Positions 33,881 to 57,525 of a DNA stretch of 64,000 nt are shown piece by piece (positions within the stretch are counted from its first letter, which is position 1; each line of letters starts with the position of its first letter). The notes below the pieces were generated by a model, which worked only from the letters and a program-made list of their open reading frames with translations, did not search any database and was not told where the DNA came from. The stretch is from a virus. The stretch spans positions 220,984-284,983 of IMG/VR virus record IMGVR_UViG_3300046516_001816; one strand, given 5' to 3'. A program made the position numbers and the translations under genes.

Positions 33881-36799
33881 TTAGGACTTGGGTTGCTGAT
33901 CCTTGTCCTGGTTCTCGTCCTCTTCCCCTTCCTTCGGCTGCGCGTTAGCGTCGGCGCCAGGTGCTGCATTCTGGTCGGCGTTATCGCTCGGTGCCGCTTC
34001 GCCCGGGGCTGCGGGCATCGTATCACCCTGACCGTTGCCCGTATCGAGCTCGGGTGCGTCAAACCCGGTCTGATCTCCAAACCCACCACCGCTGTTCTCA
34101 TCGGTGCCCGACGTGTCCGTGGAACCGAAGTCCGTGCTACCCCCTGCGGCTGTGGTGGTGAGCTTGCCCTCGGTGTCCTTGAGCTCCTCGTTGGATTTGT
34201 TGGTGATCGAGACCAGATCCTTGAAGAACTCACCAAACGTCTTCTGCAACGTTTCGATGTGTTCCGATTGGATCTTGAAGACGTCCACCGCCGGCTTGCC
34301 GTCTTCGGTTTTCGTCGTGAGCTGCGAGAGTTCCGTCATCATGCCGTTCTCGCTCATCCATTGACGCAAGAAGTAGGCTTTCGCCACTTCCTTGAGCACC
34401 GTGATCTTCTCGGCGACATTGCCACCCGTATCCGGCGTGAAGAACTTCTCCGACAGCCAGGCATCGAGCGCCATGTCCAGGGCTTCACTGTAACTCTTGA
34501 ATGCGGCGAACTGGTTTTCCAGTGTCGTCGAATTTGGACGCGGCAGGGTCACTGTCACGTTCATCAAGAATTCATTGAGGACCTGGTTGACGATGTACTC
34601 CTGATCATCCTCGCTCAGGTTGCCGGTGCCGTCCGAGTTATCGCTGCGCTTTTCGTCGATGATCGGCACACCCGTGTTGTTGCCGTAGTTGCGCGGATCA
34701 CTTGACTTCCTTTTCGCGTTCTTCTTCTCGTCCTTCGTGATGGTGAGTTTCTTGAAGTTCTCACGGAGAATCTCTTTCAAGTCCTCCACGAGCTCTTCCG
34801 AATTCATCGCGTGCTGACGCATATGCGTGGCCAGCTGCGGATGGAACTCGTCCTGAATCTGCATCACGCGCTTGGAGAGCAGGATGTTGTTGGTCACCAC
34901 CGAGGTCGCCAACTCCGGCTGGTAGGCCGCGTCAATCGTTTCCGGCGGCACACCCGTCTTCATGATCGCCCGCTTGCGCAGGTTATCTTCAAGCTCGGTG
35001 TCGGGCTTGGTGTACTGGCTGTTCTTCTCGCCGAAGTCAATCGACACGTCCGGCATGCCCGGGTGCCCTTCGTACGTGAATTCAAAGCCTGCGCGCGTAA
35101 TGAAGTCCACCACTTCAGCCGGCGAATTCACCCCCAGCGGCAAGAAGTTCTGACGGCTGCGGATGATTTCATGCATCGCCGTCTCAAGCGTCTTCTCCGG
35201 ATTGGCGTCATCCTCGTCGAACTTGAGTTTGACTTCCGTGCGACCGATCGAGTTCTTGATGCCGGCCATCACGTTGGCAAACAGCAGCATCGAGCGCAGA
35301 CTGTTCAGGATCTTCAGCTCGTCGAGCAACGACTCCCCGATGCCATCCTTATTGAAGCGGAAGGCAAAGTACGTCATGAACTCCGCCGGGATAAAGAGCA
35401 ACTGCGTATGCTGACGGGCCAAGGCCCGTGCAAACATAATGCGGTAGATCTCTTCACGCTTGCCGATCGCCACGCTGTTGCCATACGGTCCGTTGCGCAG
35501 ACGGGCGAGCAAGTCCTGCTCCACCATGTCCCCGTAGACTCGCGACGAGTAATCGAGGTGGTCCCGGTTATGGACATCAAAGCCTTCCATCTGGCTTTTG
35601 ACCTTGGTGAGCATCGCACTGGGGAAGCTCCCCGACGTCGACATCCGTTGCTGCATCTGCTGGTAGTGGTCGGTGATCTGTTGACGCACCACCGGATGGC
35701 CGTCCTGATCGAGCAGCACAAAGAAGCCGATCTGGTTTTGCGGCGTGCCCGGCACGTGCACCGGAATGATGGCTTCCGAAGGGATATGCATCACCATCGG
35801 GTTGCCCACCATGCGACGATCCAGCTGCTCGTGGGTTTTGACAGTCGCCACCGGCTGGTAATTAAACCGGCGGTTGCGATACAGCAAGCCCGTGAGTTCC
35901 CGATCGTTCATCTTCTGCATCGGGCTATTGTTACCCACCCCCAGCGATTCCAACGCGGACGAGCCCCAGGCCTTGAGCGTCTTATGCTCGCGCAGCTTCT
36001 GGTTGATCAGTGGCACCTTGAGCGCGGTCGGATTGTCCGTGACGGTCAAGAACACGTCTTCCTTATTGAGCGGCTTCGAAAAGCTGCTCTCAAAACGCAC
36101 CAGCCCGATCTCCTGCTCGATGGCGATATTTTCGTCATTGAACTGCTCGATCGCCAAACCCGGACCGCGGGCTTCTTCGGTGGGCTTCTTCTTTTGCACC
36201 GGACCCAGCAAACCCACCGGACGGATCGTGCCATCGGGGTTGATATGCTCAGCGAGGTTTTCCATGGCCATGCGCACTTGGCCGTTGATCACTTCGTCGA
36301 CCGAGTTTTCCGGGATCACCGCAATGCCGTAGGAGCCCGTGCGGAACAGCGTGTCGCGCAGGATCTTGGGAATGAGCGGTTTAATCTTATGGACTTGTTC
36401 GAAATGCTGCCGGTAACGGTCGATCATGGCGCCGGCGACGTCGGGGGCCATGAGGCCTTCAGGCGCTGTGTAGGTCAGCTCCAGCGTCATCATGTCCTTG
36501 GGCGAACCCACGGATGACACCAGAATCTGCTGCGACAACTCCATGTCGGGCAAGAGCTGCATGACCGTTTCAGCGTCATTGACGTTTTGCGCGGTCTGTT
36601 CAGCAGCGTTTCGGAAACTGTACAAGTTAGGCTGCACCGGTTCACGGTTGCCCTTATCGTTGTACTGGTTGGGGTGCTGCGACGGAATCAGCTTAGCCAA
36701 AGTGGCGGCTGTACCCGGGTCCTGTCGCACCAATTGCATGACAGGAAATCTTTTACCGCTACCCGCCAATTCAATGGCTTTGTCGTATCCGTTAGACAT
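33881..36799 (-). CDS. portal protein
   Basis: 972 residues. The core around 470-590 has the portal pattern: FIPAEFMTYFAFRF, GIGESLLDELKILNSLRSML, then KNSIGRTEVKLKF, as in the large myovirus portals. It forms the dodecameric ring at one capsid vertex through which DNA is packaged and where the tail joins. The N-terminal part has a barrel-like beta region. The C-terminus is a disordered Gly/Ser/Asp/Gln-rich tail (about 900-972). A good Shine-Dalgarno (AAGAGGTAGC) precedes the ATG. It is transcribed against its neighbours. Confidence 0.75.
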   Translation of the reverse strand: MSNGYDKAIELAGSGKRFPVMQLVRQDPGTAATLAKLIPSQHPNQYNDKGNREPVQPNLYSFRNAAEQTAQNVNDAETVMQLLPDMELSQQILVSSVGSPKDMMTLELTYTAPEGLMAPDVAGAMIDRYRQHFEQVHKIKPLIPKILRDTLFRTGSYGIAVIPENSVDEVINGQVRMAMENLAEHINPDGTIRPVGLLGPVQKKKPTEEARGPGLAIEQFNDENIAIEQEIGLVRFESSFSKPLNKEDVFLTVTDNPTALKVPLINQKLREHKTLKAWGSSALESLGVGNNSPMQKMNDRELTGLLYRNRRFNYQPVATVKTHEQLDRRMVGNPMVMHIPSEAIIPVHVPGTPQNQIGFFVLLDQDGHPVVRQQITDHYQQMQQRMSTSGSFPSAMLTKVKSQMEGFDVHNRDHLDYSSRVYGDMVEQDLLARLRNGPYGNSVAIGKREEIYRIMFARALARQHTQLLFIPAEFMTYFAFRFNKDGIGESLLDELKILNSLRSMLLFANVMAGIKNSIGRTEVKLKFDEDDANPEKTLETAMHEIIRSRQNFLPLGVNSPAEVVDFITRAGFEFTYEGHPGMPDVSIDFGEKNSQYTKPDTELEDNLRKRAIMKTGVPPETIDAAYQPELATSVVTNNILLSKRVMQIQDEFHPQLATHMRQHAMNSEELVEDLKEILRENFKKLTITKDEKKNAKRKSSDPRNYGNNTGVPIIDEKRSDNSDGTGNLSEDDQEYIVNQVLNEFLMNVTVTLPRPNSTTLENQFAAFKSYSEALDMALDAWLSEKFFTPDTGGNVAEKITVLKEVAKAYFLRQWMSENGMMTELSQLTTKTEDGKPAVDVFKIQSEHIETLQKTFGEFFKDLVSITNKSNEELKDTEGKLTTTAAGGSTDFGSTDTSGTDENSGGGFGDQTGFDAPELDTGNGQGDTMPAAPGEAAPSDNADQNAAPGADANAQPKEGEEDENQDKDQQPKS

Positions 36800-40067: not shown

Positions 40068-40673
40068 ATGCTCCGCGTGCCCTATGGTTCGGGGTCCATC
40101 ATCTCCATCGTAGGGATTGACCCGGGGAGCGACACCCTGGGTACCGCGATTCTTTGGGTCGATCTCGCTGCGATGCAGATTGTGTCGTCGTCTGCCAAGA
40201 CGTTTCGAGGGGAGAAGCTGCTCTCGAATGACTCATGGACCGAATCGCTTTATGGCAATCGCTTGGCGCGTATCTGGGCACTGGAGAATGAGCTGGTTCA
40301 TCTCTTCGAGCACGTGCAGCCGTTCATGATTGCCAGTGAGGCGCCGTTTGTAAACAAACGGTTTCCGCAAGCGGGCTTAGCGCTCACGGAAGTCGTCTGT
40401 GCTGTAAAGTCAGCTGTGATCCGGTTTGACAAATGGAAGCCACTGTATCTGATCGATCCTCCCACCGTAAAGCGGGCTATCAACGCGAAGGTGATGGGGG
40501 GTGAGAAAGGTAAAGAGGAAATGAAACGGGCGGTATTGGAAGTCTCTGATCTCCACTACGCCGGTGACACTCCACTCGACACTCTGGACGAGCACAGCGT
40601 TGATGCGCTAGCGGTGGCGTATAGCCGCTGGCACTCTTTTTTGAAGGAGATGAACTGTGTCGAAAATCCTTGA
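40068..40673 (+). CDS. RuvC-like Holliday-junction resolvase
   Basis: 201 residues. RNase-H-fold resolvase motifs: GIDPGSDTLGTAI near residues 16-28 (first Asp), MIASEAPF (Glu) near 87-94, and LDEHSVDALAVAY (acidic pair) near 172-184; DPPTVKRAINAK matches the basic substrate-contact strand of RuvC. All acidic catalytic residues seem present. It should cleave branched DNA before packaging or during recombination. Its stop overlaps the next start by 17 bases. Confidence 0.8.
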   Translation: MLRVPYGSGSIISIVGIDPGSDTLGTAILWVDLAAMQIVSSSAKTFRGEKLLSNDSWTESLYGNRLARIWALENELVHLFEHVQPFMIASEAPFVNKRFPQAGLALTEVVCAVKSAVIRFDKWKPLYLIDPPTVKRAINAKVMGGEKGKEEMKRAVLEVSDLHYAGDTPLDTLDEHSVDALAVAYSRWHSFLKEMNCVENP

Positions 40674-43496: not shown

Positions 43497-44120
43497 TTAG
43501 AAGAATACTCCTGTCTGCCCATCGATGTTGTATGGATCGCCCTGAGGCGGCGGGGCCGTCCCATCACCGCCCGTGCCACCGGTGCCACCCCCCGAGGTAC
43601 CATCTCCACTCGTGCCATCGGAAGTCGGAGGCGGCGGCGGGGTCACGCCCGCGATATTTAGCACGACACTGCCACTGAACGCGGGGGAGGCCGGATTGGC
43701 AGTCATCGTGATCGGCCACACGGGCGCAGGGATCGGCGTATTGAGCACGTCCGCTTGCGTGAGCTGCAACCCGTAGTAGGCATTGATCAAGGGTAGCAGC
43801 GTCCAGATGTCCGTCGGGTAGGCGGTGATCGGAATCGGTACCACGGTCCCGCCTGACGCATTCGCCGCGGGCAGGAAGTCCGCGAGGTTCACCCGTTTAT
43901 ACAACAGGGTTTGCGTGCCGGTGAGTTGCTGCCAGGGCATCGCGGGATCCGCTTCGATGGTGATCACGGTGTCGCGCTGATAGCGATCGCCGGTCAACGG
44001 CGTCTGGGCAATCGGATTGCCGAAGAGAATGCCTTGTGGGGGCACCAGGAAACCATTCGTGGCAAAGATCAAATCCCGCAGAATCTGCTCGGCGGGTTTG
44101 TTGTAATTGAAGTACGACAT
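43497..44120 (-). CDS. tail-associated protein with Gly/Thr/Pro-rich C-terminus
   Basis: 207 residues; ATG after CCAAGGAGTCCCC. A beta-rich N-terminal domain of about 150 residues is followed by a flexible tail with PPPPPTSDGTSGDGTSGGGT and further Gly/Thr. It lies downstream of the fibre array on the same strand, after a terminator. It may be a fibre connector or chaperone. Function unknown. Confidence 0.6.
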   Translation of the reverse strand: MSYFNYNKPAEQILRDLIFATNGFLVPPQGILFGNPIAQTPLTGDRYQRDTVITIEADPAMPWQQLTGTQTLLYKRVNLADFLPAANASGGTVVPIPITAYPTDIWTLLPLINAYYGLQLTQADVLNTPIPAPVWPITMTANPASPAFSGSVVLNIAGVTPPPPPTSDGTSGDGTSGGGTGGTGGDGTAPPPQGDPYNIDGQTGVFF

Positions 44121-44135
44121 GGGGACTCCTTGGTA

Positions 44136-44166
44136 ACAAAATAAAAGCCAGGGATTGCTCCCTGGC
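44136..44166 (-). terminator. intrinsic terminator of the Hint-containing fibre gene
   Basis: On the minus strand GCCAGGGA-GCAA-TCCCTGGC followed by TTTTATTTTG. It comes after the gene at 44176-46680. Confidence 0.8.
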
Positions 44167-44175
44167 TCTCAAGCT

Positions 44176-46680
44176 TCAGGCAGCGATGCCCATCACTTCA
44201 GCCCGAGCAATACGCTCACCCGCAGCATGGGCTTGATGCAAGAAGCGCCAGTCCAGCTGCTCGTAATCGTAGTTCCACTCGTTAAAGAACGCCGCCGCCA
44301 CGTAACCGTTCACGATACAGGGCGGACCTTCCAACACCGGAATGTAGACCGGCGTCATCGGATCTTCATCCAGCTCGACCACGGTGCGTTTGACGAAGCC
44401 GTTCAGGTGCGCGTACTCGACTTCGCCCTCGTAGACACTGTTGATGTCCTTGAGGCCTTGAGTGAGCCCACCTTCGACTTCAGCGCGCATATACGCCGCG
44501 TCGCCCGACCACCACCACTGCTTGCCGCCCGCCGCCGGTCGACTCCAGAGCGGATGGTCAGCCACCCAGCGCGTGTGTGGATCTTCCTTCATGGTGAGCA
44601 TCTTGCGACCCGTACCCAGAATCGCTTCATGCAAGCGCAACATCTTCGCCGGACCCGTGGGCGTCATCAACAGATCCCCGGGTACCAGCGACTCGATCGG
44701 CTGCCAGGTATAGTCGCCCATCAGCACGCGCGAGCCCGCGACGAAACACGACACGGAGCAATGACTGCCAGTACCGCCACCGGTGCAGACCGGCGGAGGC
44801 GGAGGCGGCTGACCGTTGATATAACCAGCCGGCGGTTGACCCGACTGCGGCCAGCCCGAGATATGACAGTAGCCCGAACGCGGACCACCTTGCCACACAC
44901 CCGTGTATGCACCGTACGCCGTGTAGACCCCGTTGCCGTTGGCCAGCCAGCTGTACGACCAGCTGTTGGAGAGCGTGAAGTTATCGCCCAGACTCGAGGA
45001 GAACGTCATGCCATCGAGCGACCCGTTCAGCACAATCACCGTGATCACGTTGTTCCAGCGGTAAAAGCCCTGGACTTGTGCGCCACCCGGCGCATTGAAC
45101 CAGGTCCAATTCCCCGTGACCGTGTTGTCCCCGCCGGTGATCACCGGGCTGGTCCCCTGATAGATCAGCAAGTCACGACCAAAGTTCCCACCACACGCGC
45201 CCGAGTAGTTCACGTTGTAGTACTGCGTGCCTGTCTCATAGAACGCAAAGCCCGAGTTGTTAATCTGACCCTGGCCCCAGTTCAAGTCGGCTTCCAGCTG
45301 ACCGAGGTTCCACGGCCCCAACGCCCCGAGGTGATACTGCGCGGACGTGCCGTGCGGATTCGAGCGGTTGTTGATGTGGCCCCACATCACGTTGTAGTTC
45401 GAATTGAAATAATTCTGGTACGCCGTTTGGGCTGCGCTCAAGGCCGCATTGAACTGGTTCGCCGTGTAGCCACTGATCTGGCTGATATTCACCGCGTGCG
45501 GATTCGCGGTATTGGCGATGTGGTTGTTGAGCGTCGTCTGCAAGCTCGCCAGGGCGCTCGCCGTCCACGTACCAATCTGCGCCGGCGTCACTACGTGCGG
45601 GTTGGCCTTATTGGCAATGTGCGTATTGAGCGTCGTGGTGTCGGCACTCGCCTCGGTCGACACGGGGGTTGTTGCATTGGTGATCGCCGTCTGAATCTGC
45701 GAGATCGTCAACGTCCCCAATCCCGTGGTCGAATCCTGGTGGGGATTGTTCAGGTTGTTGATGTGCGCATTCATCGTGGTCGCATTCGTGCTGATCGTAC
45801 TGGTGATCGCCGTTTGCGCTGCACTGATGTTGCTGTTCACGGTGGACGTCGCATACATCCCCAACTGGACCAGGGTGACCTGGTGCGGATTGTTGGTGTT
45901 GGCTTCGTGGGTATTTAACGTCACCACCAACGCCGCATCGCCTGCCTGCATCGCGGTATGTTCCACCGCAATCGCGGCGGTTTCTTCCGCTTGCGTGTAG
46001 GCGCCCAACTGATGCGCCATCAACTGGTGCGGGTTGGTGCGATCCGCTTCGTGGGCTGCGAGCAGCGCCATCTGCGTATTGAGCGGACCCAGCGCCAGTT
46101 GTTCCTGCGCGTCAGCGTAGGCTTTAATCGCATCCTGCGAGATCGGGTCACCCATCAACGAGAGCTGCGTCATGCGTTGCAGCGTATGCACCACGTATTC
46201 AAACGTGATCATCCCCGCTTGCCCGATGTCATGATACTGCGCGGACACGGGGGTTGATTGCAGCGAATCAATCACTGAGGGCCACTTGGTCGGACGGGTA
46301 TCGGGTTCAGCTTGCAGCAGGTCAGCGACGATCCCATTTTGCGGCGTCTGATAACCCGCACCCAGGGCCTGATAGTCGATCTTCACATTGGCCGACACAG
46401 CCGGATCCAGAATCACCACCACACCACAGATCGTGTCGGCGTTGGGTTTACCGTACTTGGTCGTGGCTAAGTCATACACCACGGCAGCGAAGTACTGGGC
46501 ACTGGTGAGCTTCTGACCGCTCGCCACGTCCGTCACCACGAGCGTCGACGCGAAGAACGCCCCGTAGTTCGGCGCCAGCGCCCGAATCTTCGTGGTCCCA
46601 ATCGCATGCACTTCGCCCGTAATGTCGTTCGTTGTCGCCTTCCCCGTGGGGTCCAGCGGCAAAGTCAAAACGGTTGACAT
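44176..46680 (-). CDS. tail fibre with C-terminal Hint (intein-like) domain
   Basis: 834 residues. N-terminal module (1-110) starting with PLDPTG is shared with three neighbours and probably attaches to the baseplate. Residues of about 215-500 contain repeats of the form H-I-x-N-x-x-N-P-H-x-V-T, typical of phage fibre shafts. After a Pro-rich linker, Cys645 opens CFVAGSRVLMGDYTWQPIES and VPGDLLMT, the start of a Hint domain; ADHPLW and CIVNGYVA follow. A terminal His-Asn is missing, so the domain may cleave rather than splice. It is unusual as a fibre tip. Confidence 0.75.
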   Translation of the reverse strand: MSTVLTLPLDPTGKATTNDITGEVHAIGTTKIRALAPNYGAFFASTLVVTDVASGQKLTSAQYFAAVVYDLATTKYGKPNADTICGVVVILDPAVSANVKIDYQALGAGYQTPQNGIVADLLQAEPDTRPTKWPSVIDSLQSTPVSAQYHDIGQAGMITFEYVVHTLQRMTQLSLMGDPISQDAIKAYADAQEQLALGPLNTQMALLAAHEADRTNPHQLMAHQLGAYTQAEETAAIAVEHTAMQAGDAALVVTLNTHEANTNNPHQVTLVQLGMYATSTVNSNISAAQTAITSTISTNATTMNAHINNLNNPHQDSTTGLGTLTISQIQTAITNATTPVSTEASADTTTLNTHIANKANPHVVTPAQIGTWTASALASLQTTLNNHIANTANPHAVNISQISGYTANQFNAALSAAQTAYQNYFNSNYNVMWGHINNRSNPHGTSAQYHLGALGPWNLGQLEADLNWGQGQINNSGFAFYETGTQYYNVNYSGACGGNFGRDLLIYQGTSPVITGGDNTVTGNWTWFNAPGGAQVQGFYRWNNVITVIVLNGSLDGMTFSSSLGDNFTLSNSWSYSWLANGNGVYTAYGAYTGVWQGGPRSGYCHISGWPQSGQPPAGYINGQPPPPPPVCTGGGTGSHCSVSCFVAGSRVLMGDYTWQPIESLVPGDLLMTPTGPAKMLRLHEAILGTGRKMLTMKEDPHTRWVADHPLWSRPAAGGKQWWWSGDAAYMRAEVEGGLTQGLKDINSVYEGEVEYAHLNGFVKRTVVELDEDPMTPVYIPVLEGPPCIVNGYVAAAFFNEWNYDYEQLDWRFLHQAHAAGERIARAEVMGIAA

Positions 46681-46696
46681 GATTGTTTCCTATTCT

Positions 46697-48103
46697 TTAA
46701 TGGTACGAATTCGCGTACACCTGCGCATTCAACTGATTGACCCAGTCCTGATACAACCAGCCCCCGATCTGATACGCGGTCACCCCGTGCGGATTGCTAC
46801 CATTGCCTGTGTGACCATTGATCCAGTTCGCTTGGGAGTTCAACGCGTTGGCTGCCGGCGTCGAGTACCCGTTCTGAATCTGGGCCGTGATCTGGGCACC
46901 CGTCCACGTGCCCACTTGGGCGGCCGTCACCCCGTGCGGGTTCGAATGGTTCGCAATATGGTTGTTGATCGCGGTCTGCTCGGCGTTGATACTCGCCGTA
47001 TCCCATGCGCCGATTTGAGTCAGGGTCAACTGGTGCGGATTGGCGCGACTGGCCACGTGAGCCGTAAGCGCAGCATCCTGCGTATTCATCTGCGTCGAGA
47101 TCGGCGTGATCGCGGCACTGATCGTGGTGCTGATCTGCGCGGTGGTTTGCGCATTCAATTGAACCAAGGTGACCTGGTGCGGGTTACTGTGGTTGGCGAT
47201 GTGCTCGTTCATATCGAGCGAGTCCGACGCCAGCTGCGCATTGATCGCGTTTTTGATCGCGTTCAGGTTCGCATCCGTTTCCGCCGTGGTGTAGCCACCA
47301 ATGCTGTCCGCGGTATCGTGGTGCGGATTGTTGTGGTTGGTCGCATGCGCCTGAATGTCGTTGTTGACCCCCAGGTCAGCGCTTTGACGGTTGCTCGCTT
47401 CCACCGCAATCTGACTGTCCACATTGCTCGACGCGTACACATTCACCTGTGTAAGTGTCGTTTGGTGTGGATTGTTGTAGTTCTGGATATGGGCCTGCAA
47501 GGCGGCGGCAAACGTCGAGATGTCCAACGTGCGACCGGTCAACTGCTGGTCAATCCAGGTGAGCGTAGAGTCGTAGCTCGCGGTCTTGGCCAAAGCCATC
47601 GCATTCAAGCACAGCTCCAGTGCCGTGACGACGTAGTCCCAGTCGTACGTATCACCCAGCCAGTGCATATGCGGCACCACCGGGTAGGCGTTGGGCTTGC
47701 CTGTGATATTGTTCAGCGCCACCGCTCGATCATCGTTGGCGAGCGTCTCCAATTCCTGAAGCAAGGTGCCCGTCGGATTGGACTTCGGACCCCCCAGGGC
47801 TTGATACGAGAGCGACACATTGGGCGAGACCGTGGGGTCGGTGACGACGACCACGCCCCAGACTTCTTCGCCGGTGAGCTGCGTGGCTTCGGTGTCCAGA
47901 AACTGGAACTCAAACTGCGCGCTTGTCAGGGGCTTGTTGGTGAACAGGTCCCACAACTGCATGCTCGCGCCAAAGAACGCGCCTGCTTGCGGAGCGATCG
48001 CCCGGTTCGGCGCCGTCCCAATCGCGCGGTTTTCCCCCGTCACGTAGTTGTTATTGCTGTCCCCCGTCAAATCCAACGGGTAGCGGTAGATATTCGGAAT
48101 CAT
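46697..48103 (-). CDS. tail fibre with NPH repeats (paralogue)
   Basis: 468 residues. The N-terminal module begins IYRYPLDLTGDSNN and resembles those of the 44176, 48117 and 49668 genes. Repeats such as HIANHSNPHQVTLVQL run through about residues 205-460. It has no separate C-terminal domain, so it ends in the shaft; it may be a short fibre or a connector on which another tip assembles. 16 bases upstream of the Hint fibre gene. Confidence 0.7.
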   Translation of the reverse strand: MIPNIYRYPLDLTGDSNNNYVTGENRAIGTAPNRAIAPQAGAFFGASMQLWDLFTNKPLTSAQFEFQFLDTEATQLTGEEVWGVVVVTDPTVSPNVSLSYQALGGPKSNPTGTLLQELETLANDDRAVALNNITGKPNAYPVVPHMHWLGDTYDWDYVVTALELCLNAMALAKTASYDSTLTWIDQQLTGRTLDISTFAAALQAHIQNYNNPHQTTLTQVNVYASSNVDSQIAVEASNRQSADLGVNNDIQAHATNHNNPHHDTADSIGGYTTAETDANLNAIKNAINAQLASDSLDMNEHIANHSNPHQVTLVQLNAQTTAQISTTISAAITPISTQMNTQDAALTAHVASRANPHQLTLTQIGAWDTASINAEQTAINNHIANHSNPHGVTAAQVGTWTGAQITAQIQNGYSTPAANALNSQANWINGHTGNGSNPHGVTAYQIGGWLYQDWVNQLNAQVYANSYH

Positions 48104-48116
48104 CTCGTCTTCCTAC

Positions 48117-49589
48117 TTAGTTGTGCACGCTGGCCAAGTAGTTGATCGCGTTGGCCGCCGACCCACCCGGACCCTGCAAAAGACTGATGGCATACGCCAG
48201 CTGACCCGACGTGTACGCGCCTCCGGTGTTGGAGACGTTATCGCCGTGGGGGTTGCTGTAGTTCGTCACGTGCGACTGGATCGTCCCGTTCAACGAGTTG
48301 ATCTGATTGGCCAGTGACGTCCACGCGGAGTTGATGCTGTTGTTCATCGTCGTCGCACTGTAGACGCCGGAGCCGTCCACGTTCGAGGTGACGATATTGG
48401 AATACACATCGCCGTGCGGATTGCCTGCGTTATTGGCATGCGAGTTAAACGGCACGATGATATTGGTGCTGATCGTATTGTACGTCCACGTGCCCACGTT
48501 CGCCGCGGTGTCGCCGTGCGGATTGTTCGTGTTGCCCGTGTGCGCTTGCAATGCGCTTTGAAACGTATTGACCTGCGACTGCAAGGTATTGGCAGCGGCC
48601 GTGACAGCGGCCGCAATCTGCGGGGTCGTCCACGTGCCGATCTGGGCAGCGGTGACCTGGTGCGGATTGTTGTAGTTCTGGATGTGCGCGTGTTGCGTGC
48701 TTTCATTGGCCGCAATCGTGGCTTCCAGCGCCGTTTGCATCGCTGTCATCGCGGCATCGGACTGCGCGCGCGTCATGCCACCGACTTGCGCCGGGGTCAA
48801 AGCGTGCGGGTTATTGCCGTTGTTGATGTGCGCGGTGAGCGAGGCTTCCACCGCCGCATCGCCTGCCTGACGGGTGGTGGTTTCCCCGGCGATATTCGCA
48901 ACCGTTTCCGTGGTGGTGAACGAACCGATCTGATGCGCGCTCACTTGGTGCGGATTGGTAAAGTCACTTTCGTGCGCTTGCAGTGCCGCATTGGCCGTGG
49001 CAATGTAGTTCTGCAATTCGGCGACCACGCCCTGGGCATAGGCGAGCAGAGCTTCTTGCGCTGCGCCCTGACCTTGCGTAATCGCTTTACCCAGCGTGTC
49101 GGTGGCCGAAACCAGATACTCGGTCCCAAACACATCATCGGCGTGGTGCTTGTGGGGTGCAGGCGGATACACACTTTGCTTGGCCTGTACTTCATCCCAC
49201 GTCACCGGTGCATCATTGAGATCGAGTCCCGCCAACGCTGCTTGGGCGGCAACACTGTTGAGGCTATTGATGCCACCCACAGCCTGATAGGTGACGCTCA
49301 CTTGATTGCTGACCGTGGTGTCTACAATCAGAATCACGGCATCGACTTGCTGACCGTATGCCACCGAGCTATCCAGATCCATCTCAGCCGGATAATACTG
49401 CACGTCTTTGGTGAGCGTGAGTCCCGAGGTGAGGTCTTTCACCACCACCGAGTCGCGAAAGAACAACCCGTAGTTCAACGGGAAGGCGCGCGTACCGACG
49501 GTGCCGATGCTGTGTACTTCGTTTTGAATGAGGTTGCTTGACGCCGAACCCGTGGGATCCAGCGGCAACACTAAATTCGGCGTGCTCAT
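48117..49589 (-). CDS. tail fibre with NPH repeats (paralogue)
   Basis: 490 residues from the ATG at 49589 (GGAG upstream). N-terminal module LVLPLDPTGSASSN is shared with its neighbours. The middle and C-terminal parts carry HxxNxxNPHxVT-type repeats (for example HIQNYNNPHQVTAAQIG) throughout. Like the 46697 product it lacks an evident globular tip. Confidence 0.7.
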   Translation of the reverse strand: MSTPNLVLPLDPTGSASSNLIQNEVHSIGTVGTRAFPLNYGLFFRDSVVVKDLTSGLTLTKDVQYYPAEMDLDSSVAYGQQVDAVILIVDTTVSNQVSVTYQAVGGINSLNSVAAQAALAGLDLNDAPVTWDEVQAKQSVYPPAPHKHHADDVFGTEYLVSATDTLGKAITQGQGAAQEALLAYAQGVVAELQNYIATANAALQAHESDFTNPHQVSAHQIGSFTTTETVANIAGETTTRQAGDAAVEASLTAHINNGNNPHALTPAQVGGMTRAQSDAAMTAMQTALEATIAANESTQHAHIQNYNNPHQVTAAQIGTWTTPQIAAAVTAAANTLQSQVNTFQSALQAHTGNTNNPHGDTAANVGTWTYNTISTNIIVPFNSHANNAGNPHGDVYSNIVTSNVDGSGVYSATTMNNSINSAWTSLANQINSLNGTIQSHVTNYSNPHGDNVSNTGGAYTSGQLAYAISLLQGPGGSAANAINYLASVHN

Positions 49590-49620
49590 CTGAATGAACT
49601 CCAGACCCTTATTAACAGAC

Positions 49621-49656
49621 AAAAGGGCTCAAGGTGCCCGAAAGCACCCTGAGCCC
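49621..49656 (-). terminator. terminator of the SPRY-containing fibre gene
   Basis: On the minus strand GGGCTCAGGGTGC, loop TTTCGG, GCACCTTGAGCCC, then TTTTG. Confidence 0.75.
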
Positions 49657-49667
49657 CAAAGAGAGAT

Positions 49668-52556
49668 TTACGACGAGAGGTTCCAAGCCGAGAAGCCCGA
49701 CGGCACTGCGTTGGTAAACGCATTGACGCCTGGATTGAGCGTGAGCGTATCGCCCTTCTCGGAGATCGACACGCCGAGGTACACCGGACCGGTCGTGCCG
49801 CCCGGGGCGAGAATCGCCGCGATCGAGATACCGCCCGTACCGGTGGCCGGGTTTTGGTTCGCGAGGATGTCGCCATTCCACTGACCCGAAGCCGGGTTGT
49901 AGAACCACACCTTCTGCGCGGCGAAGTCCACCGCTACGCCGAGTTCGTCGCCTGTGGCGGGCAGGGTGGCCCCGATGCCGCCATTGGTGAACGCACCGTT
50001 GTAGCTGATGCCGCTGGTGGCGGTCGACGGCTGCGTGAACATCATGATCGAGTTCGTATCGAAGCCGAGCGAGTGCGTGCCGGCGGTGCTGGCATTGCCC
50101 AGACCGAAACCCACCCCGCCATCGAGACTGTTGATCGACACTTCTGCGTAGACCTTGCCCGTGGTGCGACCGTAGGTGGCGAGCTCCGTGCGCCAGGCAT
50201 TGCTGGTATTGCTGGTGACCGTCATGTTGCCATTGGAGAGCACCATGTCGGACGGCAACACCGTCACGTTGAAGCTCATCGCGGTCGTCGCCGGCGGCGT
50301 CGTACCCGAGTTGTTCACAGCCTGGACCACGGTCTTGAACGCGGTGGTCAGCTGCGACACGACGTTGTTCAATTCCGACACGGTGGCAAAGGTTTCGGCC
50401 ACCGCGTAGATGATCCCAGCCGGTGCGGTGTTTTGCACCGAGATCGAGCCCAGGAAGTTGTTGTTGTACTCGCTGAAGCCATTGACCGTGATCTGGTTGG
50501 CGCCGCCCGGCGTTTGCATCCACAGCGTGGCGAGCTTGGTCCCGGAATTCACCGTGTAGCCAAACTTCACCGTCGTGGTGTTGCGTCCCGTGAGCGAGAG
50601 CACTTGCAGCTCCACGCTATCCGCCGAGGCGGTGTTACGCACCGACATGCGCACGTACCACGAACCCGATTGCGTGTCGCCCGTGGCATCGCCACCGGTC
50701 ACCAGCATCTGCAAGTCCGGATAGACGGTTTGACCCGCCGTGCCTTGCATCGCCATTTGCGCGATCGGGGTCCAGAGCAACGGATCCGTCGTATCAACTG
50801 CGGCCGGAATCGTGTCCTGCGGGGTGACCATTTGACTGGTCCACAACTGAGCATTGGTCGACGCCGTGATCGAGCTCGAGAGGGCTGCTTGCGACAGACC
50901 ATTCAAAGCCGTCGCGTTGGCTGCCGTCCCACTCAGAATCGCCGAGGTCAGCTGCGCTTGCGTGAGACCAAACGCTTGCGTGGCATTGGCTGCGGTGCCC
51001 GACAGGATCTGTGTGGTGAGCGCCGCAATCGTCATGCCGCCCAGCTGGTTAGCGTTCGCCGCCGTACCGTTCAGGATCTGCGTGGTCAACTGCGCCACCG
51101 TCATGCCGTTGAGCTCCGTGGCGTTGGCCACCGTCGCATTCGCAATGTAGGTATCCCATTGCGCCGGGGTCATGCCGCCGAACATTTCCGAGTCGCTTGC
51201 CGTGCCACCGGAGACGTACGAGATCAGCTGCGCGGGCGTCATGCCGCCCACCATCGTCGCGTTGTTCGCCGTACCAGCCAGAATAGCGGACGTCACCTGC
51301 GCCATCGTCTGGCCACAGAAGAGCGACGTGTCCGCTGCCTTACCCGTCTTGAGCAAGTAGCTCGCCAGCGTGCTGTCCATCTGAGCCGTCGAGTAGGCTC
51401 CGACTTGCGCTGCCGTCACCTGGTGAGGGTTGGCATAGTTCGTAATGTGGGTGTTGAGCACCGCATTCGAACCCTGGTTCGCAATGGCCGCCGCGGTTGC
51501 CGCCGGCGTCATGAACAGGTTGTTGGCCGTGCCTGCGACCGCATCGCTATTTTGCGCGACACTGAAGTTCGGCACATTGCCCAAGCCCACTTGCGCCGCA
51601 CTGGTTTGGTGCGGGTTGTTGTAGTTGAGAATGTGCGCTTGCAGGTTATTGCCCACCGAACTGTTGATCGCGACCATGGTGGTGGCCGGGGTCATATACA
51701 GATTCGTGGCCGTGCCCGTCTGGGCATCGGTGTTGCTCGCCGGTGCGTAGTTCGCGACATTGCCCAGCCCGACCTGCGTTTGCGTTACGCGGTGCGGATT
51801 GTTGTAATTGGCAATGTGAGCGTTAAACGAACCCAGCACCTGCGTTTGGATCGCCGCGGCGGTGGCCGCCGGTGTCATATACAGCGTCGTCGACGTGCCC
51901 GCTGCCGCGTCGCTGTTTTGCGCCACCGCGTAGTTCTGGACATTGCCCAGCCCGACTTGCGCGGAGCTCACATGGTGCGGGTTGCCGAAGTCGGCTTCGT
52001 GCGCAGCCAAGCCCGTGGAGCCGGTCGATTGCAGTGCGGTCGTGACGCTGTTAATCGCCCCCACCACGCTACCCATATTAACCATGTCATTCACGTCCCA
52101 CGCATGCGCGGTGGGCGGGAACGCATAGGGCGTACCACTGACTTCTTCCCACGACGTGATGCGCGGGTTGTCCGCGACGTCGGCGAGAATCGTGTTGATC
52201 TGGGAGGTCGCCACCGTCCACTGTCCACCAACGGTTTGGTAGTTCAGCTTAACGATGCCAGCCAGATTCGTGTTGATAAACAAAAGCGAACCGTAGACGC
52301 GCATAGCGGTCGAACGGCTGGCCGAGATAAACCAATGCGCCGGGTAATAATCGACGCCTTCCTCCAAGGTGTGCAGGGTACCCTGCGTGTCTTGATAGGT
52401 AACAGCGAGCGTATCAGCGAAGTACGGGGCAAACTCCGGCACGATGATGTGCTGATCCCGAAAGTTCTGCGCGACCAGTTGCTGCTGTTCCCCTGAAATC
52501 AGGTTCGAAACCAACGAACCCGTCGGGTCGAACGGATATGAGATGGGTGTTGTCAT
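49668..52556 (-). CDS. large tail fibre with NPH repeats, 22-residue repeats and SPRY-like tip
   Basis: 962 residues. N-terminal attachment module (SYPFDPTGSLVSN), then NPH shaft repeats (about 170-405), then about seven copies of a roughly 22-residue unit such as GTAANANQLGGMTIAALTTQ (about 420-590). A C-terminal domain of about 190 residues (YAEVSINSLDGGVGFGLGN, then NSIMMF and VWFYNP) looks like a SPRY/lectin-type beta sandwich, also present in the 59336 gene. It probably binds the host receptor. GGGAG precedes the ATG. Confidence 0.75.
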   Translation of the reverse strand: MTTPISYPFDPTGSLVSNLISGEQQQLVAQNFRDQHIIVPEFAPYFADTLAVTYQDTQGTLHTLEEGVDYYPAHWFISASRSTAMRVYGSLLFINTNLAGIVKLNYQTVGGQWTVATSQINTILADVADNPRITSWEEVSGTPYAFPPTAHAWDVNDMVNMGSVVGAINSVTTALQSTGSTGLAAHEADFGNPHHVSSAQVGLGNVQNYAVAQNSDAAAGTSTTLYMTPAATAAAIQTQVLGSFNAHIANYNNPHRVTQTQVGLGNVANYAPASNTDAQTGTATNLYMTPATTMVAINSSVGNNLQAHILNYNNPHQTSAAQVGLGNVPNFSVAQNSDAVAGTANNLFMTPAATAAAIANQGSNAVLNTHITNYANPHQVTAAQVGAYSTAQMDSTLASYLLKTGKAADTSLFCGQTMAQVTSAILAGTANNATMVGGMTPAQLISYVSGGTASDSEMFGGMTPAQWDTYIANATVANATELNGMTVAQLTTQILNGTAANANQLGGMTIAALTTQILSGTAANATQAFGLTQAQLTSAILSGTAANATALNGLSQAALSSSITASTNAQLWTSQMVTPQDTIPAAVDTTDPLLWTPIAQMAMQGTAGQTVYPDLQMLVTGGDATGDTQSGSWYVRMSVRNTASADSVELQVLSLTGRNTTTVKFGYTVNSGTKLATLWMQTPGGANQITVNGFSEYNNNFLGSISVQNTAPAGIIYAVAETFATVSELNNVVSQLTTAFKTVVQAVNNSGTTPPATTAMSFNVTVLPSDMVLSNGNMTVTSNTSNAWRTELATYGRTTGKVYAEVSINSLDGGVGFGLGNASTAGTHSLGFDTNSIMMFTQPSTATSGISYNGAFTNGGIGATLPATGDELGVAVDFAAQKVWFYNPASGQWNGDILANQNPATGTGGISIAAILAPGGTTGPVYLGVSISEKGDTLTLNPGVNAFTNAVPSGFSAWNLSS

Positions 52557-54931: not shown

Positions 54932-54999
54932 TGTTGTCTCTTAGATAAAAGATACACCATCGCGGCATGGTGTGGAAAACAGATAAACGGGTGTGCAAA

Positions 55000-57525
55000 A
55001 TGCGATACACCGCTTTGATTTTGAAGCATTTCAAGCGCTTTGCGCTCAATCAGATCTCGCTGTTCGATCTGCGTCCCACGGAGCAAATCCAGCTGATCCT
55101 CGGCACCAATGGGTCAGGCAAGTCCTCGCTGCTCGGTGAGCTCACGCCCCTGCCCGCGAACGCCGCGGACTATCTCAAAGGGGGCAGCAAAGAGATCCAT
55201 ATCTCGCATCGGGGTTCGACCTATGTGCTCATCAGTTCGTTTGAATCGGGTAACAAACACTACTTCCGTAAAGACGACGAAGAGCTGAATCCGGGTGGCA
55301 CCCAAGCGGTGCAAAAGGAACTGTGCAAACAGGAATTCGGCGTCACACCGGATACGCACGAATTGTCCACAGGATTGTTGCGCTTCACGGGCATGGGTCC
55401 GTCTCATCGTAGGGAATGGTACACCCGGATGTCCGACGTCTCGTTCGACTATGCCATTGGAGTCTATGACAAACTGCGTAAGGAACACCGCAGTGTGGTC
55501 GGGGCGCTGGATCTGGATAAGAAACAACTGGTCACCGAGCAGTCCAAGATCATCACCGAAGAAGAGCAGCAGTTGCTTGTGAATGACGTGAAGGATCTGC
55601 ACCGGGAACTGGAACGTTTGCTGGAAATCAAACGCCGCCCAGATCGCCCGATGGACGTCGTGGAAGAGCAACGCCGCTTAACCGAACGCGATCTGCTGGA
55701 GCTCTCCAATAAGCTGCTGAACCTCAAGGTCGAATCGCCCGCGCACCTATACCGGGACGAGTGGGGCATTCTCCAACCGCTGGAGTTTAAGTCGATCGAT
55801 GGCGTCAATGCCTATATCGACGATCTGCGTGAACAGATTGCCGCACAGAACGCGGTGATGGAAAAGCTGGTGGCCGATCACAGCAAGCAGAAAGACACGG
55901 TCGAAGTCCTCAAGAAGCAAGGGGCGGACGGGATCGAGTCGGTGCGCAAGAAGATCAATGAGTGGGCTGAGAAACGCGTGGAGGCCATGAAGGGCCTGCG
56001 TCTGAAGCTGGACTTTAGTCATACTGACCCCGTGCAAGCCAAACGCACGATTGAAGCCATCAAGCACGATCTGGAAGCCTTGGTGTTTGAGCTACCGGTG
56101 AATACCAGCAAGACGTTTGGATCAGCGGTGCTCGGCGAGCTGAAACAATCGGCGCAGACCCTGAAGGACCAGCACCGGCGTAAGGTGAATGAGCAAGCGC
56201 AACTCAGCGCGCGTAAGCAACACGCGGAAGAACATCGCGAGAAGGGCGTCACTACCTGTCCGAAGTGCAATCATTCTTTCCATATGGGCATGTCCGATGC
56301 GCAGATGGACGAGCTCAAAAAGCGACTCGTGATCGTGGGGCAAGAGATCGAGAAGCTCGAGGAACATCTCAAGAAGCTCGAGGCAGCCATTGCGGAACAG
56401 GAAGAGTACGGGGCACGGTATCGAGCGATTATTCAGTTGACGCGTTCCACCCCGGCGCTGAAACCGTTCTGGGAGTACGTGGCCGAGAAGGAACTCTTGG
56501 TGAATGCGCCGCGCAGCGTGATGAGCACGATGCAGATCCTTGAGAACGACGTCGACCTCGAGTGCATGATCGATGCGATGAATGCAGAGATCGAGGAGTT
56601 GAAGAAACTCCTGGCGAAATCCGAAGAGCTCGGCGATCAGAATCTGGGCGAAGCGGTGGAGAAGCTTAACACCCTCACCACGGAAATCGAAGCCCACACC
56701 AAAGCACTGGCGCAGTCACGGCGCGAACTCAACGACTTCCATACCTATCGCAAGCAGTTGCAAGAAGCGATGGCGTTGGAGTTGAAGATCAATGTGGCGA
56801 TGGTGACGTTTGAAAACCTCACGCATGAAGCCGTGGAGACGCTGCGCCTCAGCACGATCGAACAGTGTTTCCGCCAAACCCAGTCGACACTCGCCCGTAA
56901 GGAAGAAGTACTCAAAGCGGTGCATCAGCAAAAGGCCATTGTCGAGCATCTGAAGACGACCATTGTGCGCCGGACGATGGAAGAAGAAGCGCTTAAGCAT
57001 TGTGTGCGCGAACTCTCCCCCACGGACGGGCTCATTGCAGAGGGCTTACTCGGGTTCATTAAGAATTTTACCCACCAGATGAATCAATTGATTCGCAAGA
57101 TCTGGGCGTACCCGTTGGAAGTCCTGCCGTGCGGGATCTCCAGCGAACGCGGCGCGGAACTGGATTATAAGTTTCCGCTGATGGTCGGCACACGGGACAA
57201 TATCGTCTCGGATGTCAGCCGCGGCAGCTCTGGAATGCAAGAGATCGTGGACCTGGCGTTTAAGGTGATCGGTCTTAAGTATCTGGGACTGGAGCACGGC
57301 ACGTTGATGCTGGATGAATTCGGCAAGACGCTCGACTTGGAGCACCGCACAGCGGCCGTCATGGCCATTAAGATGCTGATGGAAACGAAACCGTTCTCGC
57401 AGCTCTTTATGATCTCGCACTACGAATCGCATTACGGAGCTTTCTCGAACGCGCAGGTCTGTGTTCTCGATGCTCGCAATATCGCTGTTCCTAAAACCCA
57501 TAACACTCACGTCACCATTCAGTAA
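55000..57525 (+). CDS. Rad50/SbcC-like SMC-family ATPase
   Basis: 841 residues from ATG 55000. Walker A GTNGSGKS at 35-42; two long coiled-coil arms separated by a zinc-hook CPKC (Cys420, Cys423); the ABC signature region VSRGSSGMQEIVDL; Walker B LMLDEFG (D772, E773) and a C-terminal switch His (MISHYES). Such proteins work with an Mre11/SbcD nuclease to process DNA ends. No nuclease partner is in the window. The preceding gene is tail-related, so the context gives no further clue. Confidence 0.82.
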   Translation: MRYTALILKHFKRFALNQISLFDLRPTEQIQLILGTNGSGKSSLLGELTPLPANAADYLKGGSKEIHISHRGSTYVLISSFESGNKHYFRKDDEELNPGGTQAVQKELCKQEFGVTPDTHELSTGLLRFTGMGPSHRREWYTRMSDVSFDYAIGVYDKLRKEHRSVVGALDLDKKQLVTEQSKIITEEEQQLLVNDVKDLHRELERLLEIKRRPDRPMDVVEEQRRLTERDLLELSNKLLNLKVESPAHLYRDEWGILQPLEFKSIDGVNAYIDDLREQIAAQNAVMEKLVADHSKQKDTVEVLKKQGADGIESVRKKINEWAEKRVEAMKGLRLKLDFSHTDPVQAKRTIEAIKHDLEALVFELPVNTSKTFGSAVLGELKQSAQTLKDQHRRKVNEQAQLSARKQHAEEHREKGVTTCPKCNHSFHMGMSDAQMDELKKRLVIVGQEIEKLEEHLKKLEAAIAEQEEYGARYRAIIQLTRSTPALKPFWEYVAEKELLVNAPRSVMSTMQILENDVDLECMIDAMNAEIEELKKLLAKSEELGDQNLGEAVEKLNTLTTEIEAHTKALAQSRRELNDFHTYRKQLQEAMALELKINVAMVTFENLTHEAVETLRLSTIEQCFRQTQSTLARKEEVLKAVHQQKAIVEHLKTTIVRRTMEEEALKHCVRELSPTDGLIAEGLLGFIKNFTHQMNQLIRKIWAYPLEVLPCGISSERGAELDYKFPLMVGTRDNIVSDVSRGSSGMQEIVDLAFKVIGLKYLGLEHGTLMLDEFGKTLDLEHRTAAVMAIKMLMETKPFSQLFMISHYESHYGAFSNAQVCVLDARNIAVPKTHNTHVTIQ

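Follow-up and report, generated by a model that had tools for sequence, protein, structure and literature searches.

Self-processing Hint domains occur in inteins, hedgehog proteins and secreted proteins of bacteria, and in bacterial secreted toxins Hint domains stand ahead of the toxin tips (PT-HINT). We came across no account of their repeated occurrence at the ends of phage tail fibres: among the papers searched on Hint domains in tail fibres no such study turned up, and the phage inteins that did were those of terminase, reductase and further enzymes. Among the described systems, hedgehog-type (hog) domains perform the first acyl shift only (PMC7664689), and, of the intein motifs, B-type BIL domains lack only the C-terminal one and are known to undergo N-terminal cleavage (PMC7765530). 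Self-removing domains at the ends of phage fibres include the Peptidase_S74 chaperones, e.g., those of T5 pb1 and K1F endosialidase. The C-terminal chaperone of T5 pb1 removes itself, competition for the receptor is seen with the processed protein alone, and the cleavage has been suggested to uncover the tip that binds (PMC4690869).

The locus described here lies in a stretch of 64,000 nucleotides (hereafter the window; positions 220,984 to 284,983 of IMG/VR record IMGVR_UViG_3300046516_001816), which forms the end of a virus record of 284,983 bases. A virion protein encoded at 33881-36799 shares 51% identity with a protein of Burkholderia jumbo phage FLC9 and around 28–30% with those of large Pseudomonas phages, e.g., Phabio; we take FLC9 and the Phabio-type phages to be phiKZ-like jumbo phages. 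We found four adjoining genes on the complementary strand that encode fibres with NPH repeats, all matching PHROG 2163 (virion structural protein). The last of them (44176..46680, minus strand) is an intact ORF for a tail fibre protein of 834 amino acids with a C-terminal Hint domain, and it matches PHROG 2163 at E 1e-57 as well as several tail fibre PHROGs. The three upstream paralogues, at 46697..48103 (PHROG 2163 at E 3.9e-73), 48117..49622 and 49668..52556 on the same strand, carry no Hint domain, the first of them serving as a within-genome control. Other genes of the window include a RuvC-like Holliday junction resolvase gene at 40068-40673, positioned among virion genes (PHROG 159, E 6e-19), and a gene for an SbcC-like nuclease subunit at 54967-57525 (PHROG 77); PADLOC gave no matches.

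From its N-terminus, the fibre consists of a region common to the three upstream paralogues (residues ~1-190; 46111..46680, minus strand, as for all parts that follow), which is probably the virion-attachment end and has homologues without Hint in phiKZ-like phages. It is followed by a shaft of HI.N..NPH..T..Q.G repeats matching tail fibre PHROGs (residues ~191-470; 45271..46110) and by a tip domain common to relatives (residues ~471-628; 44797..45270), modelled by AlphaFold2 at low confidence (pLDDT 62). The tip domain also occurs in loci L002, L003, L044, L045 and L046 and in L116, an orthologue that lacks Hint, while a search among named phages gave no relative. A Pro/Gly linker (44749..44796) ends at the Ser that precedes Cys645 (44749-44751). 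The Hint core extends from Cys645 (Cys1, base 44748) to about residue 800 (44281..44748), with the block-B His709 in the motif VADH at 44554..44556, and is followed by a C-terminal extension with a DYxxxDW motif and then a helix to the end (44179..44280); D169, Y170 and W175 are conserved in this extension, and the AlphaFold2 model places the helix at 175-197. Just past the stop codon lies a hairpin resembling an intrinsic terminator (44143..44167, minus strand; AGCCAGGGA-GCAA-TCCCTGGCT-TTT), and the next gene, starting at 44120, encodes a DUF7941 virion protein (43497..44120, minus strand; PF25613, E 1.6e-21). This gene serves as a synteny marker: DUF7941-like genes are also present in L002 and in L116, in the latter downstream of the Hint-less orthologue.

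The preliminary description of this locus, made from the sequence alone, had proposed a Hint domain at the fibre C-terminus, and the proposal is borne out by family profiles and by an AlphaFold2 model. The 190-residue part starting at Cys645 indeed carries the CFVAGSRVLM, VPGDLLMT, DHPLW and CIVNGYVA stretches listed there, and the NPH shaft repeats and Pro-rich linker are seen ahead of it. Searched alone against Pfam, NCBIfam, PHROGs and the PDB, the window domain gave nothing above cut-off, its only match in Pfam being a sub-threshold one to Hint_2 (E 0.039, 14.8 bits). Since this match is weak, the window sequence taken by itself could be a chance match, and relatives were therefore gathered for a family profile. 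Once these are included, a chance match is no longer tenable: Pfam Hom_end_hint is matched at E <= 0.01 by 28 of the 31 family members (best 7.8e-13), and the profile search that the preliminary description had suggested, run with 16 sequences, finds PI-SceI at 1.3e-9 along with other inteins. The model of the domain (28 sequences; pLDDT 91.9, pTM 0.88) is placed among Hint domains by both Foldseek and VIA-align. The best 50 of the 82 chains aligned by VIA at Z >= 5 are all Hint domains, a list in which the absence of other families carries no weight as evidence. Cys9 of the model (i.e., Cys645) aligns with residue 1 of inteins. Lack of a Hint fold on prediction had been named beforehand as grounds for abandoning the proposal; the model matches Hint structures, and the C-terminal 190 residues are thus predicted to be a Hint domain, a fold settled as far as prediction allows. 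Peptidase_S74 has no Pfam match in the window protein.

The closest solved structure is the intein-like BIL2 domain of the Tetrahymena BUBL1 locus (6y75; Z 16.0, 2.2 Å over 138 residues by VIA), yet identity between the two is 13% and, unlike the window domain, BIL2 possesses a C-terminal Asn (N143, which is mutated in 6y75). With class 1 inteins (PI-SceI, DnaB, gp41-1) the family shares the fold and blocks A and B, including the block-B His, but it lacks the terminal His-Asn, the C-extein and the endonuclease. As the preliminary description had noted, the terminal Asn and the downstream extein are missing: the window Hint ends in IVNGYVAAAFF, and about 34 further residues lead to the stop and the terminator-like hairpin. 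Identity as an intein is rejected, as the His-Asn terminus and the C-extein are both absent. Nor does the domain correspond to an A-type BIL, since columns 158-164 of our alignment (A3, see below) hold no His-Asn pair. It is nearer to the B-type BIL domains in fold, in its N-terminal motifs (block A and the block-B His) and in the missing C-terminal His-Asn motif, but the block-B Thr is replaced by Ser or Val and the family has its own invariant Arg, Trp, Glu and Ala; moreover, known B-type carriers are hypervariable bacterial proteins, whereas here the domain is always the last one of a phage fibre. The hedgehog Hint domain (1at0, Z 12.0) resembles the family in fold, the CF start, an IVVN-type end without His-Asn, the C-terminal place and an extension past the Hint fold, the family end IIVNGYVVGAG aligning with the hedgehog end IVVNSVAASCYA. 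In contrast, hedgehog Asp46 and the block-B Thr are not kept in the family, and the sterol-recognition region is not recognisable, the DYxxxDW extension being conserved but short. In an hhalign comparison, which is a sequence alignment only, the sterol-activating Asp46 falls on the variable column 54/55, while the adjoining Arg47 aligns with the invariant R56. The domain thus resembles hog or B-type BIL domains, in which case at most the N-terminal thioester step would be possible.

The family was assembled from Achromobacter phages 2-1 and JWF and Providencia phage PSTNGR1, then from IMG/VR and GTDB contigs, and A3 contains 31 phage-type sequences that span the whole Hint domain. No exceptions to Cys1 and the block-B His are seen among the 31, and F10, L17, M18, G32, R56, W76, E98 and A121 (model numbering) are likewise invariant. 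The residue before Cys1 is Ser in 14, Thr in 12 and Cys in 5, with no others. Against a share of 24% for Ser, Thr and Cys together in the upstream region, such a restriction would hardly arise by chance, also when the 18 types of fibre module described below are taken as the only independent cases. Three positions before the block-B His, where inteins have Thr, 29 sequences have Ser and two, the window protein and L002, have Val. In nearly all members the Hint fold is followed by DYxxxDW and then by a variable tail. Most members had been recovered with N-terminal motifs; when the C-terminal half (A6), which leaves out the Cys1/His region, was used by itself, 15 loci were obtained with one new sequence (L132/L133, one protein on two contigs), in which Cys1, EEH and the preceding Ser are all present. 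Within our collection there is, in view of this outcome, no sign of Cys1-less members hidden by the search. When 385 and 398 bacterial genomes were compared with the family profile, only seven matches were obtained at E <= 1e-12, all weak, for which a motif scan gave no resolution; the domain thus looks phage-bound and uncommon in bacterial genomes. We found no curated family of its own covering these sequences, some relatives being labelled "Hint domain containing protein" or "Hom_end-associated Hint" in BFVD and GenBank. One of these is PJWF_00028 of Achromobacter phage JWF ("Hom_end-associated Hint family protein"), a fibre-like protein with a C-terminal Hint, 32% identical, for which the depositors recorded a T4-gp36-like match; it differs in having a Cys-rich linker and a nearby radical-SAM gene, and is known from annotation only. 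Taken together, these sequences form a branch of the one-sided Hint domains that belongs to phage fibres.

Hint is the last domain in every member, while the N-terminal parts of the 31 proteins fall into 18 unrelated clusters that include NPH shafts, collagen-like, Gly-rich and other types. In L116 the window fibre has a syntenic orthologue (L116:1585-3597) that agrees with it in N-terminus, shaft, tip domain, Pro linker and flanking genes but has a long Gly/Asp-rich repeat tail in place of Hint. The matching fibre of FLC9, in turn, ends in an S74-like domain (identified by motif only). As L116 demonstrates, fibres of this type occur without Hint, which is therefore optional: it is one of several interchangeable fibre ends. 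The existence of this Hint-less orthologue also counts against an obligatory role as a folding chaperone, a reading that we considered and that is weakened accordingly. Neighbouring or related NPH fibres that end in a Peptidase_S74-like motif (again by motif only) were observed at L003:3850-5334 and L110:5001-6482.

The two closest pairs of relatives show how selection acts on the domain. Between the window protein and L002, identity is 79% in Hint and 57% in the tip domain; between L045 and L046 it is 94% and 77%, respectively. The corresponding dN/dS ratios, which are rough because dS exceeds 1 in some segments, are 0.139 (Hint) and 0.440 (tip) for the former pair and 0.059 and 0.129 for the latter. 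In both pairs Hint has the lowest dN/dS in the fibre and the tip is the fastest-evolving domain; in more distant pairs the identities of Hint and tip are about equal. The contrast is that between a domain whose task stays constant, under enzyme-like constraint and unlike a host-range tip, and a tip that changes.

The family has kept Cys1, the block-B His and a Ser, Thr or Cys before Cys1, and it has lost the His-Asn pair and the extein. Because the parts for the N-terminal step are retained, we propose that recombination has placed a one-sided, hog- or B-type-BIL-like Hint behind the tip domain and a flexible linker at the fibre end, where it acts as a self-removing cap, a reading to which we assign a probability of roughly 55%. 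Everything beyond the Hint fold and its conservation we infer. In the window fibre, which is presumably trimeric, Cys645 would attack the preceding carbonyl in an N-to-S acyl shift, and the fibre tip would then be held at residue 644 as a thioester still attached to the Hint domain. The thioester would then be resolved by a nucleophile such as water or a thiol, releasing Hint (~21 kDa) and leaving the end of the linker as the mature, possibly chemically modified fibre tip. The domain would most likely serve transiently, capping the fibre or aiding its assembly before removing itself. In this the family may be likened to the S74 chaperones, which are also C-terminal fibre domains removed after assembly, though these are unrelated in fold, being trimeric coiled coils with tentacles and Ser chemistry, whereas Hint is a single-chain fold. 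The conserved Cys1, His and preceding Ser, Thr or Cys are consistent with self-processing at Cys645, which the preliminary description had raised as a possibility. On the other hand, the window protein and L002 have Val in place of the block-B Thr, which could impair the acyl shift there or prevent it altogether, and this is the strongest reason for doubting activity of the window protein itself. That the column aligned with the nucleophile-activating Asp of hedgehog is variable likewise tells against the proposal.

The same N-terminal chemistry is used by hog domains, and the thioester of the fibre tip might be passed to a specific nucleophile, yielding a covalently conjugated tip, with the DYxxxDW extension recognising the adduct; the nucleophile could be another virion protein, a small molecule, or an amine or hydroxyl of the host surface. 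The hog-like C-terminal sequence agrees with such a transfer, as does the conserved extension past Hint in nearly all members, which recalls the sterol-recognition region of hog proteins (PMC7765530). However, the activating Asp of hedgehog lands on a variable column, the extension is short and has no recognisable kinship to known recognition regions, and no partner was found, so that we regard the transfer as a rather doubtful alternative.

Of similarly low likelihood, in our judgement, is a catalytically dead Hint fold taken over as a structural knob or adhesin. Hint folds tolerate changes of the active site (PMC7664689), the domain sits at the fibre tip, and the window protein has Val where Thr or Ser is found in block B. 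Yet Cys1 and His are strictly invariant over 31 divergent sequences in which the preceding residue is limited to Ser, Thr and Cys, in close pairs the Hint has changed less than the tip domain, and its distribution over 18 module types in unrelated phages is unlike that of a host-specific adhesin. We consider it very improbable that the domain is a decaying mini-intein, i.e., a remnant of a selfish element in the fibre gene that lost its C-extein: membership in the intein superfamily and the absent C-terminal Asn would suit this, but purifying selection (dN/dS 0.06-0.14), the coherence of a family with its own invariant R56, W76, E98 and A121 that is always C-terminal over 18 fibre types, and the lack of any homing endonuclease part speak against it. 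Release of a C-terminal effector in the style of polymorphic toxins, for which the PT-HINT arrangement offers a precedent, has next to no probability and is rejected, as no domain is encoded in the ~34 residues between the Hint fold and the stop with its hairpin, and PT-HINT is absent from the Pfam matches.

If active, the self-removing cap would give fibres a second, independent route, beside the S74 chaperones, to a tip that they complete themselves once assembled; its occurrence on 18 unrelated fibre types would also make this route portable. The prediction is a narrow one that concerns a single Cys and a single bond. That about 30 fibres from other phages, many of them otherwise unrelated, share the Hint end suggests self-trimming or chemical finishing of fibre tips. 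Hint domains are not restricted to these fibres; L064, L095, L019, L021, L063, L070 and L085 are other phage proteins, several of them virion-like, with at least one Hint domain. The Hints of L064 and L095 end in FVVHNK right before the stop, with His-Asn kept and hardly any C-extein, and those of L019, L021 and L070 are arranged in tandem.

One branch of the family is marked by a Cys-rich linker ahead of Hint (e.g., CNCDCNCS|CFPAG), found in twelve members. A radical-SAM gene lies downstream in 12 of 12 of these (L004, L005, L010, L011, L012, L015, L016, L020, L047, L049, L050 and L057) versus 1 of the 19 others; with near-identical loci merged the counts are 9/9 versus 1/19 (Fisher p 1.4e-6), for linkers sorted by eye after the data had been seen, L034 and L035 being borderline cases from short contigs and one contig contributing two loci. 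L132, a later find, fits the association. The Pfam Radical_SAM cut-off was passed by all ten proteins tested and that of the SPASM domain by at least five of the eight scanned, while NCBIfam matches were mostly to peptide maturases (PapB, QhpD-type, CcpM), far under the equivalog cut-offs. The linker of the window fibre is not of the Cys-rich type, and no radical-SAM gene was found in its own genome record. The association suggests modified fibre tips in the relatives and is a lead that does not concern the window protein. A broader and quite tentative scheme, which we think unlikely as a whole, is one of fibre-tip maturation in which Hint would act as a "follower" that makes the end thioester and removes itself, and in one branch a radical-SAM/SPASM maturase would first modify the Cys-rich peptide, giving a RiPP-like, perhaps thioether-bridged or conjugated, tip. 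Should the radical-SAM link be real, some virions carry modified peptide tips. The linker rule has one exception, L013:5683-8480, where the linker of the Hint fibre is not Cys-rich and two radical-SAM-like genes follow one another downstream. On one phage contig of 109 kb there are two Hint fibres (L010:3323-4504 and L047:3449-4522), each with its own radical-SAM gene and one of them with a collagen-like shaft.
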